In this document: in pieces, positions 46,579 to 53,439 of the stretch
Numbering within the stretch: the stretch's first letter is position 1
How the letters are laid out: each line of letters opens with the position of its first letter
Assembly: GCF_000812965.1 (NCBI RefSeq)
Contig: NZ_JSYN01000025.1
Location: 62,001 to 126,000, forward strand
Direction of reading: 5' to 3'
Length of the DNA stretch: 64,000 nt
Source: Pedobacter kyungheensis
GTDB taxonomy: Bacteria > Bacteroidota > Bacteroidia > Sphingobacteriales > Sphingobacteriaceae
Made by a program: the position numbers and the translations under genes
The notes under the pieces: generated by a model
Seen by the model: the letters and a program-made list of their open reading frames with translations, nothing else
The model's database searches: none
What the model was told of the DNA's origin: nothing

Positions 46579-46968
46579 TTACAAAAACCGTTTCAACCAT
46601 TCCATAGCCTTTTTATCATCGGTAAACGATTTCATGGGGATGGGAGGGTTTTGAAATTTAAAGAGCAGCTTCATAATGAATTGAGCGAGACCAGGTTTCG
46701 ATACCATAGCCATAGCAGTATAAATGGTAGGCAATTGTGCTGTCGAAAATTTTCGGGTTGCTTTATCCGGTACCGGTGAATTTTTGAGGTAAATTAACAG
46801 GGGTACTTTTTTGTTATGGGTGATTTCTTTTACCAGCGCTACATTGGCGGCGATATTTTCTACCGTACGTAAAATACTTTTACTGTAAGCAACCAGTATG
46901 CCTGTATCGGTAAGCAGGTAATCGGCAATTTCGCCTGCTATAAGCGAGTTGTCTATATTTTTTTCCAT
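46579..46968 (-). CDS. SpoIIAA/STAS-like small protein
   Basis: 129 residues, no signal peptide. Pattern TDTGILVAYSKSILRTVENI, then VALVKEITHNKKVPLLIYLK and a C-terminal FQNPPIPMKSFTDDKKAMEW fits the SpoIIAA-like/STAS fold seen in Bacteroidota proteins often labelled STAS/SEC14 or DUF7793. Role unknown; such proteins may bind lipids or act as anti-anti-sigma relatives. It begins one base after the aldehyde dehydrogenase stop codon, so it is the last gene of the amino-alcohol operon. Confidence 0.68.
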   Translation of the reverse strand: MEKNIDNSLIAGEIADYLLTDTGILVAYSKSILRTVENIAANVALVKEITHNKKVPLLIYLKNSPVPDKATRKFSTAQLPTIYTAMAMVSKPGLAQFIMKLLFKFQNPPIPMKSFTDDKKAMEWLKRFL

Positions 46969-46969
46969 T

Positions 46970-48334
46970 CTAGCCCCTTAAATGATATCCTTTTGGTTTA
47001 GTGAATGCCCGAAGGCCCTGATGTGAAAGGGTTGCCCCAATGCCTGAATATTTCCTACCACTCCATGGAAGGGCAGCGCTTACCCTGTCGCAGCAATTCC
47101 AGTAACCCGAGCCTGCATCCAGCTGCGCGAGTATTTTTTCAGCCCGTGATTGATCAGCAGTATAAATAGCTGCGGTTAAACCATAATCGGTATCCTGCAT
47201 CATTTTTAAAGCCTCGTTATCGTCTTTAACCTTCATGATGCCGATTATTGGGCCAAAGCTTTCTTCCTGCATCACCAGCATATCGTTAGTTACTTCGGTT
47301 AAAACTGTGGGCTCAAAATAATAACCTTTTCCCTGAGGGGCTTTACCGCCTGTTAGGAGTTTAGCTCCTTTGTTCAGGGCATCTTTAATCTGGTTTTCCA
47401 AAATTGCAATCTGCGCTTTTCGGGTTAATGCACCAATATATACGCCATCAGTTGTAGGTAAGCCACTTTTCCAGCTTTTTACTTCATCAACAAAGGCAGA
47501 GAGGTAGGCCTCGTAGTTTTTCTCATGCACATAAATGCGTTCAACTGAGCAGCAGCTCTGTCCGTTATTATAAAAAGCGCCATCGGCAGTGCCGATGGCA
47601 GCGGCAGCAACATCGGCCACATCTTCGGCAATGTACAGCGGATCTTTACCGCCCAGTTCGAGCTGGCAGGGTACCATTTTAGGCGCTACTTTTTCGTAAA
47701 TGTATTTGCCGGTTTGGTAAGAGCCGGTAAAGAAATAGCCATTAAAATCCATTTCCAGTAAAGCTGCACCAGTTTTTTTAGCCCCCACGGCTACCTGAAA
47801 AACCTGTTCGGGTACACCGGCTTGCTTCAATAATTTTTCAATTTGAAGTCCGGTTAGTGTTGCATACTCGGATGGTTTGTACATGACGGCATTTCCGCTT
47901 AACAGGGCAGGGATAAAAACATTTACGCCCACCAGGTAAGGGTAGTTCCAGGCTGAAATATTACATACTACACCCAGTGGTTCGTATCTGATAATCTCTT
48001 TTAGTCCAGGTTCATCAACCATCACTTCATCCGAGAGGTATTTTTCAGCATGATCGAGCATCCATTTAATCCGTGCCCTTGCGCCGTTGATTTCATTGCG
48101 CGATTGCTGCAGGGGTTTACCCACCTCGCTGGTTAATACCGAAGCCAGTTCTTCCATATCCTCAGCCAATAAATCGCTAAACCTGGCGATAACCAAAATC
48201 CTTTCGGCAAGGGATTTACCGGCCCATAGTGGTTGCGCTTTTTTAAGGGCATCCAATTTGGTTTGAAGTGTTAACGGGGTATCTTCATGCAAAGTGCGTA
48301 TTACTTCTTCGGTTGCGGGGTTAATGATCTGCAT
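46970..48334 (-). CDS. NAD(P)-dependent aldehyde dehydrogenase of the gamma-glutamyl amino-alcohol operon
   Basis: 454 residues from the ATG at 48334 (MQIINPATEEVIRTL). A longer frame from 48364 adds MKICGKKIKN, translated from a repeat arm, and is rejected. Catalytic Cys261 in FYNNGQSCCSVERIYV and general base Glu226 in CQLELGGKDPLYIAEDV are present; cofactor-binding GYFFTGSYQTG (about 199-209) is clear. Most similar in outline to succinate-semialdehyde-type ALDHs. In this operon it would oxidise a gamma-glutamylated aminoaldehyde (for ethanolamine, gamma-glutamyl-aminoacetaldehyde) to the acid. Substrate is inferred from context. Confidence 0.93.
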   Translation of the reverse strand: MQIINPATEEVIRTLHEDTPLTLQTKLDALKKAQPLWAGKSLAERILVIARFSDLLAEDMEELASVLTSEVGKPLQQSRNEINGARARIKWMLDHAEKYLSDEVMVDEPGLKEIIRYEPLGVVCNISAWNYPYLVGVNVFIPALLSGNAVMYKPSEYATLTGLQIEKLLKQAGVPEQVFQVAVGAKKTGAALLEMDFNGYFFTGSYQTGKYIYEKVAPKMVPCQLELGGKDPLYIAEDVADVAAAAIGTADGAFYNNGQSCCSVERIYVHEKNYEAYLSAFVDEVKSWKSGLPTTDGVYIGALTRKAQIAILENQIKDALNKGAKLLTGGKAPQGKGYYFEPTVLTEVTNDMLVMQEESFGPIIGIMKVKDDNEALKMMQDTDYGLTAAIYTADQSRAEKILAQLDAGSGYWNCCDRVSAALPWSGRKYSGIGATLSHQGLRAFTKPKGYHLRG

Positions 48335-48349
48335 ATTCTTTATTTTTTT

Positions 48350-48449
48350 ACCACAGATTTTCACAGATGAACACAGATTTTAAATAGGGATTAACGTCCT
48401 CAATTAACCTAAAAATTGCTATCTGTGTTTATCGCTCTTATCTGTTAAT
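48350..48449. repeat. CCACAGATT-family hairpin element, copy 2
   Basis: ACCACAGATTTTCACAGATG... faces ATCTGTGTTTATCGCTCTTATCTGTTAAT. The right arm contains the stop codon of the amidotransferase gene (48438-48440), and the left arm encodes the spurious N-terminus of the aldehyde dehydrogenase. Confidence 0.75.
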
Positions 48450-49148
48450 ATTTAGTTTTATCGCATTAATAAAGGCATTGTGTATATTTTTACTAAAAGG
48501 GCCTTGCTGGTCTTTTAACCTTTCGGGATGCCATTGTACAAACAGGAGAAAGGATTTTCCTTCGGGATGCATGCGCTCCATTGCCTCAACAACGCCATCT
48601 GCTGATATTGCACTGGCTACAAGACCTTTCCCGGTTCTATCGTTACTTTGGTGGTGATTGCTGTTTACCAGACCTTTATCGGTATTTACGATGCCGCTTA
48701 ACCAGGATGAGGGGTTGATGGTAATTTCATGGTAGCGGTCTGATTTGTCGGGCATTTTAGCATGGTCGAATTTGCCCCAGGTAGGGATATCAGGAATCAG
48801 CGTGCCGCCAAAAAATACATTACCCACCTGTATACCCCGGCAAATACCCAGAACAGGGATGGCGTTGGCTTCGGTATAGGCCAAAACCTTAAATTCAAAT
48901 TCGTCGCGGCTTTCGTCGATATCATCTTCATAGCAAAACGGATAATACTCCGGATGCTGGTAAAAACGGGGGTGTACATCTTCACCACCGGTTAATACAA
49001 TACCCTGGCATTTTTTTATCTCGTCGAAATTATTGAGTTTATAACCCAGCTGAATTACTTCAACGGCTTCGTTGTACGATAAGACCCAATTGCGGTAAAT
49101 ATCAAATTTACTGCAATCTGTAACCCCAATTATTATTTTATCAGACAT
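48438..49148 (-). CDS. Class I glutamine amidotransferase / gamma-glutamyl hydrolase (peptidase C26, PuuD-like)
   Basis: 236 residues, cytoplasmic. Nucleophile Cys103 in VLGICRGIQVGNVFFGG and the His207/Glu209 pair in FVQWHPERL; an LTGGEDVHP oxyanion segment near 52-60 is the PuuD hallmark. PuuD hydrolyses gamma-glutamyl-GABA. Here it would release glutamate and the amino acid from the oxidised gamma-glutamyl conjugate (glycine if the substrate is ethanolamine). The final residues and stop codon lie in a hairpin repeat, so the native C-terminus may have been replaced. Confidence 0.93.
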   Translation of the reverse strand: MSDKIIIGVTDCSKFDIYRNWVLSYNEAVEVIQLGYKLNNFDEIKKCQGIVLTGGEDVHPRFYQHPEYYPFCYEDDIDESRDEFEFKVLAYTEANAIPVLGICRGIQVGNVFFGGTLIPDIPTWGKFDHAKMPDKSDRYHEITINPSSWLSGIVNTDKGLVNSNHHQSNDRTGKGLVASAISADGVVEAMERMHPEGKSFLLFVQWHPERLKDQQGPFSKNIHNAFINAIKLNINR

Positions 49149-49163
49149 TACTATTTATTTTTT

Positions 49164-49260
49164 TGCCACAGATTTCACAGATAACACAGATTTGGATTGC
49201 GATTTTTTATTTATGTAATGCCGCCTTTTATCCGTGTTCATCCTCTTTATCTGTGGTTAA
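49164..49260. repeat. CCACAGATT-family hairpin element, copy 3
   Basis: TGCCACAGATTTCACAGATA... faces ATCCGTGTTCATCCTCTTTA TCTGTGGTTAA, filling the gap between the alcohol dehydrogenase and amidotransferase genes. Confidence 0.75.
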
Positions 49261-49268
49261 TGATTACT

Positions 49269-50417
49269 TTAGAGCGCACTTAAGTATAATTGTTTAAAAT
49301 CTTCGCGACTTACTGGTTTTGGATTGTTCGGGTGCGCAAAATCGGCAAAGGCTAAATCGGCAAGTGTTTCTATATGTTCATTTTTAACGCCAATATCACT
49401 TAATTTATGCGGAATATTTACTTTACTGTTTAAATCGAACAGATATTTTACAACGGCATCACCACTTTGCTCCTGAAGGTCTAAAGCAATGGCGATTTTT
49501 TTAAAACGGTCTTCAAAGCCTGCAATGTTAAACTGCATACCGTAAGGAATATTTACTGCATTGGCCAGGCCATGGTGCGTATCTAAAAGTGATGATAACG
49601 GATGTGCCAGCGAGTGCACCACCCCAAGACCCTTCTGAAAAGCAATTGCGCCCATCATCGAGGCCATTAACATTTTACTGCGACTGGCTAAATCAGGATG
49701 GTTTGTTGCCTGCACCAGCGAATCTTTAATCAATGATATTCCCTCCAAAGCAATTCCATCACACATGGGGTGAAAGTTTTTAGCCAGATAAGCCTCCATG
49801 TTGTGTGTTAGCGCATCCATGCCTGTTGCAGCGGTAATAAATGGAGGTAAATCCATGGTTAATTCCGGATCTGCAAAAACAATCTGTGCCATTAATTTAG
49901 GCGAAAACAGGATTTTTTTCTGGTGCGTTTCATCATCGGCAATAATGGCGCTCCGGCCCACTTCGCTACCTGTGCCTGATGTTGTGGGGATAGTAATAAA
50001 ATGAGGCACATCGTTGGTCACATAAATATCGCCACCAATCAGGTCGTCGTATTTAAACAAATCTTCGCGGTGATTTACCCTTAACACAATGGCCCGCGCT
50101 ACATCTAATGCTGCACCACCGCCTATGCCTATAATGCTGTCGCGGTTGGTAGCATCCCAAGCTTCGCAACCTTTATACACATCGCTTTTAACTGGATTTT
50201 TATGGATATCGCTAAATACTTCTACGGCTATGTTTTTTGAGCTTAGATCTGCAATAATGCCCTTAAAAAAAGGAAGCTGTGCTATAGTTGGGTCGGTAAC
50301 AATTAAAGGGGCTTTTAAATTGTTTTTAGCCAGATAGGCCGGCAATTCTTTTACAGCACCTGCACCAAACCGAATGGCAGTAGGGAAGTTAAACTGATGG
50401 ATCTTATCGAATATCAT
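49269..50417 (-). CDS. Iron-containing (group III) alcohol dehydrogenase
   Basis: 382 residues. Nucleotide-binding SIIGIGGGAALDVARAI (about 95-111) and VPHFITIPTTSGTGSEVGRS. Metal ligands sit in AATGMDALTHNMEAYLAKN, HSLAHPLSS and HHGLANAVN. Related enzymes oxidise or reduce short aliphatic and diol alcohols with NAD(P). In this operon it fits the oxidation of the free hydroxyl of a gamma-glutamylated amino-alcohol to the aldehyde, a step for which the putrescine pathway instead uses the FAD oxidase PuuB, absent here. Substrate is inferred. Confidence 0.94.
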   Translation of the reverse strand: MIFDKIHQFNFPTAIRFGAGAVKELPAYLAKNNLKAPLIVTDPTIAQLPFFKGIIADLSSKNIAVEVFSDIHKNPVKSDVYKGCEAWDATNRDSIIGIGGGAALDVARAIVLRVNHREDLFKYDDLIGGDIYVTNDVPHFITIPTTSGTGSEVGRSAIIADDETHQKKILFSPKLMAQIVFADPELTMDLPPFITAATGMDALTHNMEAYLAKNFHPMCDGIALEGISLIKDSLVQATNHPDLASRSKMLMASMMGAIAFQKGLGVVHSLAHPLSSLLDTHHGLANAVNIPYGMQFNIAGFEDRFKKIAIALDLQEQSGDAVVKYLFDLNSKVNIPHKLSDIGVKNEHIETLADLAFADFAHPNNPKPVSREDFKQLYLSAL

Positions 50418-50499
50418 GGTGTTGTTTTTATTTTGTTGTTCATTAGTTCACGTCATGCTGAATTAATTTCAGCATCTCTTCTTTTGGCAAGACGCATCA

Positions 50500-51861
50500 T
50501 TAAATAATTTCTAAATACCTTTTCAGTTCCCAATCGGTTACCACTTTGGCATATTGTTTACATTCCCACTCGCGGGTCATGCTAAAATGGGCAACAAAAT
50601 CGGCTCCCAATAGGGTTTTGGCTAGCTCAGAATTTTTCATCTTTTGGGTAGCTTCGAATAAGTTGCGGGACAAGGTACCGTTTGATAAATCGGTATAACC
50701 ATTCCCTTTGGTGGCAGGCTGCTCCAGTTTGAGTTTATTTTTAACCCCATAAAGCCCTGCAGCCAAACAGGCCGCAACTGCGAGGTAAGGATTGGTATCC
50801 GAGCCTACAATCCGTGTTTCTAAACGGGTAGCTTTTTTGCTGCCAGGTAAGGCGCGCAGTGCAGTGGTGCGGTTGTCTATTCCCCAGGTGAGGGTAGTAG
50901 GCGCCCAGGCACCTTCAACCAAACGTTTATAGCTGTTAATGGTTGGCGCAATCATAGGTAAAATATGCGGCAGGCAATGCAATTGACCAGCAATGTAACT
51001 TTTCATCGTTCCGCTTATTTTATCGGCATCTTTTTCATCGTAGAACAGATTGTTTTGATGCTGATTATCCCACAAACTCTGGTGTACATGACCGCTGCAA
51101 CCGGGCAGGCTTTCGTTAATTTTGGCCATAAAAGTAGCCAGAATACCATGTTTATAAGCAATTTCCTTAACGGCGGTTTTAAACAAAATAGCCTGATCTG
51201 CAGCTTGCAGGGCATCGGCATATTTAATGGCGGCCTCATAAACTCCGGGGCCGGTTTCGGTATGCAGTCCTTCAATAGGAATATCGAATTTGTTCAGTAA
51301 TTCGAACAGATCGCTCATGAATTCATTTTTATAAGTACTGCGCAGAATAGAATAGCCAAACATTCCCGGACTTAATGGCTTTAAATTACTGAAGCTTTTT
51401 TCGTGTGCCGTTTCTGGGGTTTCGGCAAAATTAAACCACTCAAATTCTTGTGCAAAATTGGGCGAGTAACCTTCGTTTTCACACTCGGAGATGATTTTTT
51501 TTAGCAGCTGCCGGGGGCAAACCGAATTGGGTTGGTCGTGCTCATCAATAAAATCGCCCAGAAAGAAGGGTACATCATTTTCCCAGGGGATTTTTCGAAA
51601 GGTATTCAGGTCTATTTTAACCTGGGCATCAGGATAGCCAGTATGCCAGCCGGTGTATTGTCCGTCTTCGTAAGCCAGATCTGCCGCATCCCAGCCAAAG
51701 GTAACATCGCAAAAACCCAAACGGCCTTCAACCAATGAAGCAAATTTTTCAGTAGCTACGTACTTGCCTCGTAAAATGCCATCGATATCGGCAACGGCTA
51801 ATTTTACTTTACCAGAGGGATGGTTTTTAACATAATCCAGAATTTCTTTGCTTGTACTCAT
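50500..51861 (-). CDS. Glutamine synthetase-like gamma-glutamyl ligase (PuuA/GlnA4-like)
   Basis: 453 residues. The N-terminal beta-grasp domain (VKLAVADIDGILRGKYVATE, about 17-36) and C-terminal catalytic domain with Glu-rich metal sites (AQEFEWFNFAETP, GPGVYEAAIKYADAL), ATP loop NESLPGCSGHVHQSLWD and RLEYRI-like ALPGSKKATRLETRIVGSD are present. It lacks the adenylylation Tyr segment and other features of true glutamine synthetase. PuuA-type ligases glutamylate amines at the cost of ATP; the homologue GlnA4 of Streptomyces acts on ethanolamine. Start overlaps the permease stop by four bases (ATGA), implying translational coupling. Confidence 0.93.
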   Translation of the reverse strand: MSTSKEILDYVKNHPSGKVKLAVADIDGILRGKYVATEKFASLVEGRLGFCDVTFGWDAADLAYEDGQYTGWHTGYPDAQVKIDLNTFRKIPWENDVPFFLGDFIDEHDQPNSVCPRQLLKKIISECENEGYSPNFAQEFEWFNFAETPETAHEKSFSNLKPLSPGMFGYSILRSTYKNEFMSDLFELLNKFDIPIEGLHTETGPGVYEAAIKYADALQAADQAILFKTAVKEIAYKHGILATFMAKINESLPGCSGHVHQSLWDNQHQNNLFYDEKDADKISGTMKSYIAGQLHCLPHILPMIAPTINSYKRLVEGAWAPTTLTWGIDNRTTALRALPGSKKATRLETRIVGSDTNPYLAVAACLAAGLYGVKNKLKLEQPATKGNGYTDLSNGTLSRNLFEATQKMKNSELAKTLLGADFVAHFSMTREWECKQYAKVVTDWELKRYLEII

Positions 51862-53174
51862 GCATTAACCTTTTTAAAAAGTTTGTATAAAAGAAAGATG
51901 CCTAAAATAATGCCCGAATAAATTAATCCTAATTTAAGATTATAAATCAGCATTGCGATAAAAGAAACACACGAAATAAACAATGCAACGATCGGAAATA
52001 GCGGGTAAACCGGGGTTTTAAAAGGGCGTGGCATTTCTGGCTTACTTTTCCTCAGTACCATGACTGAAATCATCGAAATGATATAAAGGGTTAAAGCCCC
52101 GAATACCGAAATGATGATAATTTCGGCAGTTTTGCCTGATAGGAGGGCTATAATTCCAATAACCATGTTGCCAATCAGGGCGTTTGCAGGGGTTTGGAAT
52201 TTGGGCGAAATTTTACCCAAAATAGCGGGTATACTTTTTACCCTGCCCATTTCGTAAGTAGAGCGGCCAGCGGCCAGCACCAATCCGTGAAAAGAAGCCA
52301 CCAGACCAAATAAACCGACCGTAATTAACAAGTGGTACATGAGGTGGTTGCTCCCGGTGATCATCGACAGGGCGAGAGGGAGAGGAGAATCGGAAGTTTC
52401 GCCAGATTTTCCATTTTTATACACAATGGCTTCCCAACCACCTATACCAACGGTTGAAATGAAAACGAGTATGCATAAAACCACCAGGGTAAATATTCCC
52501 CAGCCAAAACCTTTGCTGATATCGCGTTGTGGGTTTTTGGTTTCTTCGGCCACATTGGCTACGCCCTCAATGCCCAGAAAAAACCAGATGGCGAAAGGAA
52601 TGGCTGCAAATACACCACTCCAGCCGTTGGGGAAATTATTGTGAATAAGGTTTGCTGACTGGAATTTGGGTAAAGTAATCCCTGAAAACAAAAGCAGCTC
52701 GCCCACAGCAAGCACGGTAACAATAACCTCGAACGAAGCTGCGGCTTTAACGCCATATACATTTAAAGCCGTAAAAATAAAGTAGATGGCAATCGCTGAG
52801 GTAAGTATGGGCACTTGTGGGAAGAAAGCATTAAAGTAGGCGCCAATGGCAAAAGCGATGGCCGGTGGGGCAAATATAAACTCAACCATCTGCGCAATGC
52901 CGGCAATAAAGCCCATGTTTTGGCCTAAAGCGGTATTGGCGTAATCGAAAACGCCGCCCGCTTTTGGGATGGCACAAGCCAGCTCGGCATAACTGAAACT
53001 AAAGGTAACATACATTACCATGATCGCTACTGTGGCAATGGCCATGCCTAGGGTTCCTCCTTTTTCGAGGCCTAAGTTCCAGCCGAAATACATACCCGAA
53101 ATAACATACCCTACACCCAGCCCCCATAGCATAAATGGGGTGAGTGTTTTTTTTAAGCCTGTACTTTGCTCCAT
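51858..53174 (-). CDS. APC-family permease, ethanolamine-permease-like
   Basis: 438 residues, about 12 membrane spans. The first span region reads GVGYVISGMYFGWNLGLEKG, closely resembling the ethanolamine permease group of the APC superfamily, followed by SYAELACAIPKAGGVFDYAN and FIAGIAQMVEFIFAPPAIAF. It would import ethanolamine or a related amino-alcohol or amine across the inner membrane. First gene of the operon; coupled to the glutamyl ligase. An amino acid or polyamine substrate remains possible because the family is broad. Confidence 0.9.
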   Translation of the reverse strand: MEQSTGLKKTLTPFMLWGLGVGYVISGMYFGWNLGLEKGGTLGMAIATVAIMVMYVTFSFSYAELACAIPKAGGVFDYANTALGQNMGFIAGIAQMVEFIFAPPAIAFAIGAYFNAFFPQVPILTSAIAIYFIFTALNVYGVKAAASFEVIVTVLAVGELLLFSGITLPKFQSANLIHNNFPNGWSGVFAAIPFAIWFFLGIEGVANVAEETKNPQRDISKGFGWGIFTLVVLCILVFISTVGIGGWEAIVYKNGKSGETSDSPLPLALSMITGSNHLMYHLLITVGLFGLVASFHGLVLAAGRSTYEMGRVKSIPAILGKISPKFQTPANALIGNMVIGIIALLSGKTAEIIIISVFGALTLYIISMISVMVLRKSKPEMPRPFKTPVYPLFPIVALFISCVSFIAMLIYNLKLGLIYSGIILGIFLLYKLFKKVNA

Positions 53175-53414: not shown

Positions 53415-53439
53415 AAGCCAGTAGTTTTGCTACTGGCTT
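53415..53439 (-). terminator. Terminator after the YiaA/B gene
   Basis: AAGCCAGTAG-TTTTG-CTACTGGCTT; on the minus strand it is followed by eight T residues. Confidence 0.92.

Follow-up and report, generated by a model that had tools for sequence, protein, structure and literature searches.

Introduction

How might a bacterium assimilate ethanolamine without ethanolamine ammonia-lyase? This question is raised by a row of six genes, all on the minus strand at positions 46579-53174 of a 64,000-nucleotide (nt) stretch of the Pedobacter kyungheensis genome (contig NZ_JSYN01000025.1, positions 62,001 to 126,000), here called the window. Ethanolamine is the headgroup of phosphatidylethanolamine (PE) and a common product of membrane-lipid breakdown, and studies of its use have dealt mostly with the Eut route, which depends on cobalamin. 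Based on the genes in the row, we suggest that the operon probably assimilates ethanolamine by an alternative route: (i) a permease would import ethanolamine, (ii) a ligase resembling glutamine synthetase (GS) would use ATP to join glutamate to the amine of ethanolamine, giving gamma-glutamylethanolamide, (iii) an iron-containing alcohol dehydrogenase (FeADH) and then an aldehyde dehydrogenase (ALDH) would oxidise the protected alcohol to gamma-glutamylglycine, and (iv) a hydrolase of the Peptidase C26 family would release glycine and regenerate glutamate. The glycine could feed the glycine cleavage system, of which the P protein, GcvP, is present in the genome. EutB is absent from the genome in a search with PF06751; the initial annotation of the locus had listed EutBC and shell genes as missing, which stands for EutB, and for EutC and shell genes no search was made. 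The substrate and each reaction are predictions drawn from gene identities, active-site residues, conservation and genomic partners.

The chemistry of such a route is already known or proposed from Streptomyces and Phaeobacter (PMC6529630, PMC10132767). Streptomyces GlnA4 makes gamma-glutamylethanolamide in vitro, and the later steps, including a dehydrogenase, were proposed (PMC6529630). In Phaeobacter, five proteins of the ethanolamine operon MED193_10021-10056 are listed as raised on PE in a study of the proteome response to PE, in which ethanolamine was bound by a TRAP binding protein; the functions named are an ethanolamine gamma-glutamylase, a gamma-glutamylethanolamide dehydrogenase, an aldehyde dehydrogenase and a gamma-glutamylglycine amidohydrolase, and closely related genes of Chromohalobacter salexigens and Agrobacterium (A. 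tumefaciens) are credited to Vetting et al. 2015 (PMC10132767). The 2015 study counted ethanolamine as a TRAP ligand (PMC5812351). A review covers the Phaeobacter-type pathway and includes Flavobacterium among the genera reported to use ethanolamine, but does not name the route considered here (PMC9397018). Three things look new: the combination of five genes, a GS lineage separate from that of Ruegeria, and the spread among Bacteroidota; the literature matches listed hold no description of such a pathway in Bacteroidota.

Results

A conserved row of genes

A check of the open reading frames (ORFs) in the window, together with Pfam and NCBIfam searches, bore out the six-gene row, the families of its first five members, the 4-base overlap and the one-base gap of the initial annotation, and all six proteins reached Pfam gathering scores. 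In order, the row encodes an Eat-type APC permease (51858-53174; AA_permease) predicted to take up ethanolamine, the GS-like gamma-glutamyl ligase (50500-51861; GS, PF00120, 326.3 bits) as the predicted gamma-glutamylethanolamide synthetase, the FeADH (49269-50417; Fe-ADH, PF00465 and PF25137) as the predicted gamma-glutamylethanolamide dehydrogenase, the PuuD-like Peptidase C26 hydrolase (48438-49148; PF07722, 145.6 bits) as the predicted gamma-glutamylglycine hydrolase, the ALDH (46970-48364; Aldedh, PF00171, 427.8 bits) as the predicted gamma-glutamyl-aminoacetaldehyde dehydrogenase, and a DUF7793 protein (46579-46968; PF25056, 64 bits). The permease and GS genes overlap by 4 nt and the subsequent gaps measure 82 nt (GS-FeADH), 120 nt (FeADH-C26), 73 nt (C26-ALDH) and 1 nt (ALDH-DUF7793); we infer that the genes are co-transcribed. 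Besides the permease, no protein of the row reached an NCBIfam cutoff, for the ALDH among the 25 of 45 matches listed.

Counting matches at E 1e-60 or better, the GS is found in 55 of 148 genomes of relatives. Besides its own, these are 41 from the genus and 13 from the class, and all 54 of these further loci were retrieved for comparison of their neighbourhoods. GS, FeADH, C26 and ALDH are all present in 41/41 genus loci and the permease in 40, the exception (L037) being on a contig that starts just before the GS. The order of GS, FeADH, C26 and ALDH recurs throughout these 41 loci, which is more than chance would give. The class loci vary: L076 and L079 have all five genes and others fewer, down to just permease and GS; one has GS alone (L073), one carries a GS of another lineage (L084) and several lie at contig ends. 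Among 80 named loci, which overlap with the 41 genus loci and are not independent of them, all five core genes lie within 6 kb of the GS in 50, and complete sets include those of Pedobacter, Solitalea, Chitinophaga, Parapedobacter, Olivibacter, Rhodocytophaga and Lacihabitans. The neighbourhood is thus conserved outside this strain, a point on which the initial annotation had made its proposal depend, and the operon is real, conserved and coherent.

The residues expected in these families to be catalytic or metal-binding are kept in all rows aligned (some genomes are included twice in these and the GS residue counts): the putative metal ligands D201, H205, H272 and H282 of the FeADH in 118/118, E236 and C271 of the ALDH in 118/118, and C103, H207 and E209 of the C26 hydrolase in 110/110. 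The FeADH is the sole match to itself in its own genome at E 1e-8. In a tree of 42 rows, with hand-picked loci and few outgroups, it groups with the FeADHs of the Ruegeria and Legionella operons (94/87, not starred), to the exclusion of FucO and EutG. A single cluster holds the alcohol dehydrogenase, the aldehyde dehydrogenase and the predicted gamma-glutamyl hydrolase, as expected of a gamma-glutamylation pathway for ethanolamine.

Two side observations concern these enzymes. In Pedobacter the C26 position is occupied by two hydrolase types, one 79-90% identical to that of the window (L031-L051) and one 35-39% identical (L052-L071); both keep the catalytic triad, and across L031-L071 the other four proteins (permease, GS, FeADH, ALDH) never fall below 70%. 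On a Legionella lytica plasmid (L088:6983-11630), GS, ALDH, FeADH and an amidotransferase annotated as GMP synthase lie in a row without a permease.

The permease points to ethanolamine

The assignment of ethanolamine as the predicted substrate is supported mainly by the permease, which passes the ethanolamine permease model TIGR00908 with 439.9 bits (cutoff 381.75). In a sample of 395 genomes of the phylum, 12 of which contain EutB, homologues at E 1e-80 are found in 18 besides the window's, eight with 44-48% identity to it and ten with 58-69%. EutB is present in 8/8 genomes of the former group, in seven of them on the same contig and at most 730 nt from the permease, and in 0/10 of the latter. 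So clean a split of 18 genomes would arise by chance once in 43,758 (a hand calculation that ignores kinship). In 7/10 genomes with the 58-69% permease, a GS of the window type adjoins it; in one (G331) permease and GS are on separate contigs; and in two (G299 and G207) a different GS lies about 3 kb from the permease in one gene run.

The loci of the last two genomes (L128 and L129) consist of a one-strand run of GS, short-chain dehydrogenase (SDR), ALDH, a Legionella-like amidotransferase and permease, in which the names of SDR, ALDH and amidotransferase come from BLAST comparison with proteins of Paenarthrobacter and Legionella. Their permeases are 64 and 61% identical to that of the window and nest within the clade of GS-linked permeases, the group of 11 holding them at 98/96 in a tree of 34 rows with hand-picked loci and bootstrap values that had not settled. 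Outside the phylum, permease homologues with 42-47% identity on proteobacterial plasmids are nearly all annotated eat; of the three examined in context, two (Thioclava and Azospirillum) lie beside eutBC. In Thermomicrobium roseum an eat-annotated permease comes after a GS and a gene annotated as glucose 1-dehydrogenase; of the reference sequences compared, the Ruegeria GS matches this GS best (49% identity).

In Vescimonas fastidiosa (L235:5851-8299), an iron-containing alcohol dehydrogenase overlaps a permease 33% identical to that of the window; the permease is annotated just as an amino acid permease and no GS is annotated in that stretch.

Could the same chemistry serve another amino alcohol, such as alaninol, 1-amino-2-propanol, 3-aminopropanol or a mixture, and yield alanine, beta-alanine or the like? 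We consider this unlikely. All the enzymes suit primary amino alcohols generally, and neither the FeADH nor, among the matches listed, the ALDH reaches an NCBIfam cutoff. Moreover, the GS shares 39% identity with a Paenarthrobacter GS annotated as ipuC (gamma-glutamylisopropylamide synthetase), near which dehydrogenases, an SDR among them, and an amidotransferase are also found; that cluster differs from the window in having a P450, a ferredoxin and a ferredoxin reductase and in serving, by annotation, another amine. The permease, however, passes the ethanolamine model, its Bacteroidota relatives adjoin EutB, and close relatives pair with the GS lineage of the Ruegeria type.

A ligase with an altered ammonium site

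The GS is the sole match to itself in its own genome at E 0.001, and its best match in a named species is that of P. soli DSM 18609 (98%). In an alignment of 105 rows, all from outside the GS-F2-HAD cassette described below, every metal and ATP residue tested is kept in 105/105; so is every glutamate residue tested apart from the N264 column, which holds P. The ammonium site is altered: the flap residue Glu327 (E327) is replaced by W and Tyr179 (Y179) by F in 105/105 rows. The Asp50 (D50) column aligns ambiguously, with mostly D and with E in the window GS. At the flap position, PauA7 has W296 and GlnA4 has F331 (PMC6529630).

In a tree of the quick kind, in which long branches were flagged and L082 and L083 were dropped for length, the operon GSs form one clade of 106 rows (97*). 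A separate Ruegeria lineage of 11 rows (100*) includes the GSs of L128 and L129 and leaves out the window GS, which is 37% identical to the Ruegeria GS. The operon clade extends to Emticicia, in whose loci no Eat permease was found near the window-type GS.

Because gamma-glutamyl protection is also the principle of the E. coli Puu pathway, the ligase could act on putrescine, with the FeADH working in another step or in reverse. Ligase, ALDH and C26 hydrolase are 28, 33 and 29% identical to PuuA, PuuC and PuuD, respectively, and related GSs lie beside ABC transporters annotated for polyamines in two plasmids. Nevertheless, we regard a polyamine pathway as very improbable: the six genes include neither a PuuB-type FAD oxidase nor a PuuE-type transaminase and instead have an alcohol dehydrogenase, present in 41/41 genus loci, and an Eat-type permease that is only 23% identical to PuuP, yet passes the ethanolamine model; and the gamma-glutamylputrescine synthetase model scores the ligase far below its cutoff (209 versus 650). 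The initial annotation had proposed that an alcohol dehydrogenase replaces the Puu oxidase; no PuuB-type oxidase is found among the six genes, in line with the proposal, but the idea is not new, being anticipated in PMC6529630 and PMC10132767 and by the Ruegeria operon. Slighter still is the chance that the ligase is a producer of glutamine, or simply serves to detoxify amines, with the neighbours as passengers, as the loci with permease and GS only (see below) might suggest, given that the ligase falls below the NCBIfam cutoffs for glutamine synthetase (GlnA), that its flap Glu is replaced in every row and that the gene order is kept across families.

Observations that weigh against the assignment

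Several observations count against ethanolamine assimilation as the role of this operon. Firstly, the substrate of the permease is deduced from a family name and from genomic context; an eat-annotated permease lies beside a primary-amine oxidase in Paraburkholderia, and APC permease-GS pairs without a visible link to ethanolamine are found in three Streptomyces plasmids, so that pairing of an APC permease with a GS is not specific to ethanolamine. Secondly, in 14 of the 80 named loci permease and GS are the only core genes within 6 kb of the GS, nine have GS alone and seven have other subsets, some of these loci being at contig ends. Thirdly, GS relatives with 50-63% identity belong to a different cassette, one that has neither permease nor dehydrogenase: in 20/20 loci fetched (L101-L120), from 33 such genomes, the nearest relatives outside the operon clade are followed by genes for a protein of about 370 amino acids (aa) and a HAD-IIA phosphatase. 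Operon GSs and these GS-F2-HAD GSs differ in four columns, none of which is among the catalytic columns tested, and no tested catalytic column separates the two. Fourthly, within the operon clade the gene after the Emticicia GS is of GntP type in 4/4 loci (L184, L191, L207, L212). Finally, in L084, where TRAP genes flank a permease-GS pair, the PDB matches of the TRAP binding protein include ketoacid- and sorbitol/mannitol-binding ones.

With relatives this close in so different a setting, the substrate cannot be read from the sequence of the GS alone. Five of the cassette genomes (G240, G355, G503, G389, G511) also carry EutB and the permease with 44-48% identity, which argues that the GS-F2-HAD GS probably does something else.

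Two leads were given up. L084 (genome G089) had at first seemed, from its TRAP genes, to connect with the TRAP ethanolamine system, and was dropped because its binding protein is not among the matches of the Ruegeria one at E 1e-15. For the two genes after the GS in L101-L120, the first few residues had suggested a polyamine role; this reading was dropped when Pfam and NCBIfam gave no family for the first and a HAD-IIA phosphatase for the second. GS-F2-HAD is a recurring cassette in its own right (e.g. with the GS at L101:5888-7009, minus strand); one member of each of its families was scanned, and the one protein of about 370 aa scanned went unmatched in Pfam and NCBIfam, lacked a significant match in the PDB and, by eye only, has a kinase-like look.

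Relation to known systems

The Ruegeria operon consists of genes for RpiR, N-formylglutamate amidohydrolase, TRAP proteins, GS, ALDH and iron-containing alcohol dehydrogenase, an order that matches the published description of the Phaeobacter ethanolamine operon (PMC10132767). The functions named for Phaeobacter, compared by description only, are those predicted for the window route, and the Ruegeria operon shares the iron-containing alcohol dehydrogenase. The two differ from the window in the TRAP transporter, the N-formylglutamate amidohydrolase and the RpiR regulator; the window cluster lacks the TRAP transporter and has the APC permease of Eat type and C26 instead, with its GS in a different lineage. 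Two loci of the same phylum (L132, L134) have GS, ALDH and FeADH 75-81% identical to those of the Ruegeria operon, which suggests recent transfer or misplaced contigs.

The Streptomyces GlnA4 cluster, also compared by description only, resembles the window in having a gamma-glutamylethanolamide synthetase, a putative ethanolamine permease, an aldehyde dehydrogenase and a glutamine amidotransferase, and differs in having a short-chain dehydrogenase in the place of the FeADH and in that the Streptomyces permeases are stated to be dissimilar to EutH and Eat, whereas the window permease is Eat-type (PMC6529630). The run in L128 and L129 carries the enzyme types listed for this cluster (PMC6529630). 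Three Streptomyces plasmid records opened for the GlnA4 cluster hold permease-GS pairs and no such cluster, and a Rhodococcus record holds two GSs without an adjoining permease. With short eut operons (eutBC and eat) the window shares the Eat-family permease; the difference is that its genome lacks EutB by PF06751 and that the ligase would replace the lyase. The second-best PDB match is 5dm3, probably C. salexigens Csal_0679, an identity on which no claim here relies. Csal0679 is listed as a putative glutamine synthetase (PMC5299690).

Other features of the locus

The DUF7793 gene is present in 14/41 genus loci and is an optional member of the operon. The label "STAS-like" given to its product in the initial annotation was not confirmed: the SpoIIAA-like model, of STAS type, scores 24.5 against a threshold of 25, just short, and the predicted fold has a mean pLDDT of 44.6, making the model unusable. 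The ALDH ORF begins with GTG and has an in-frame ATG at residue 11, which may be the true start. A terminator-like hairpin with a 10-pair stem and a T run (53415-53439, minus strand), known from a consensus scan only, lies between the permease and an upstream YiaA/B gene. A palindrome-like hairpin of 8 pairs (50455-50475) lies in the GS-FeADH gap.

Discussion

Combining the gene identities with the conservation and permease data, the route from ethanolamine via gamma-glutamylglycine to glutamate and glycine, as put forward in the initial annotation, is the best-supported reading of this operon, with ethanolamine as the presumed substrate. On a broader scale, we entertain at even odds a model in which two GS lineages serve ethanolamine and have been exchanged under one clade of Eat permeases, with an SDR swapped for the FeADH or vice versa, and in which the window type is a widespread, EutB-free route of Bacteroidota with an EutBC counterpart in the same phylum.

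If ethanolamine is indeed the substrate, the ligase would be distinguishable from glutamine synthetase by its neighbours and by its flap residue, and many Bacteroidota would recover both the carbon and the nitrogen of ethanolamine without EutBC and without free acetaldehyde.

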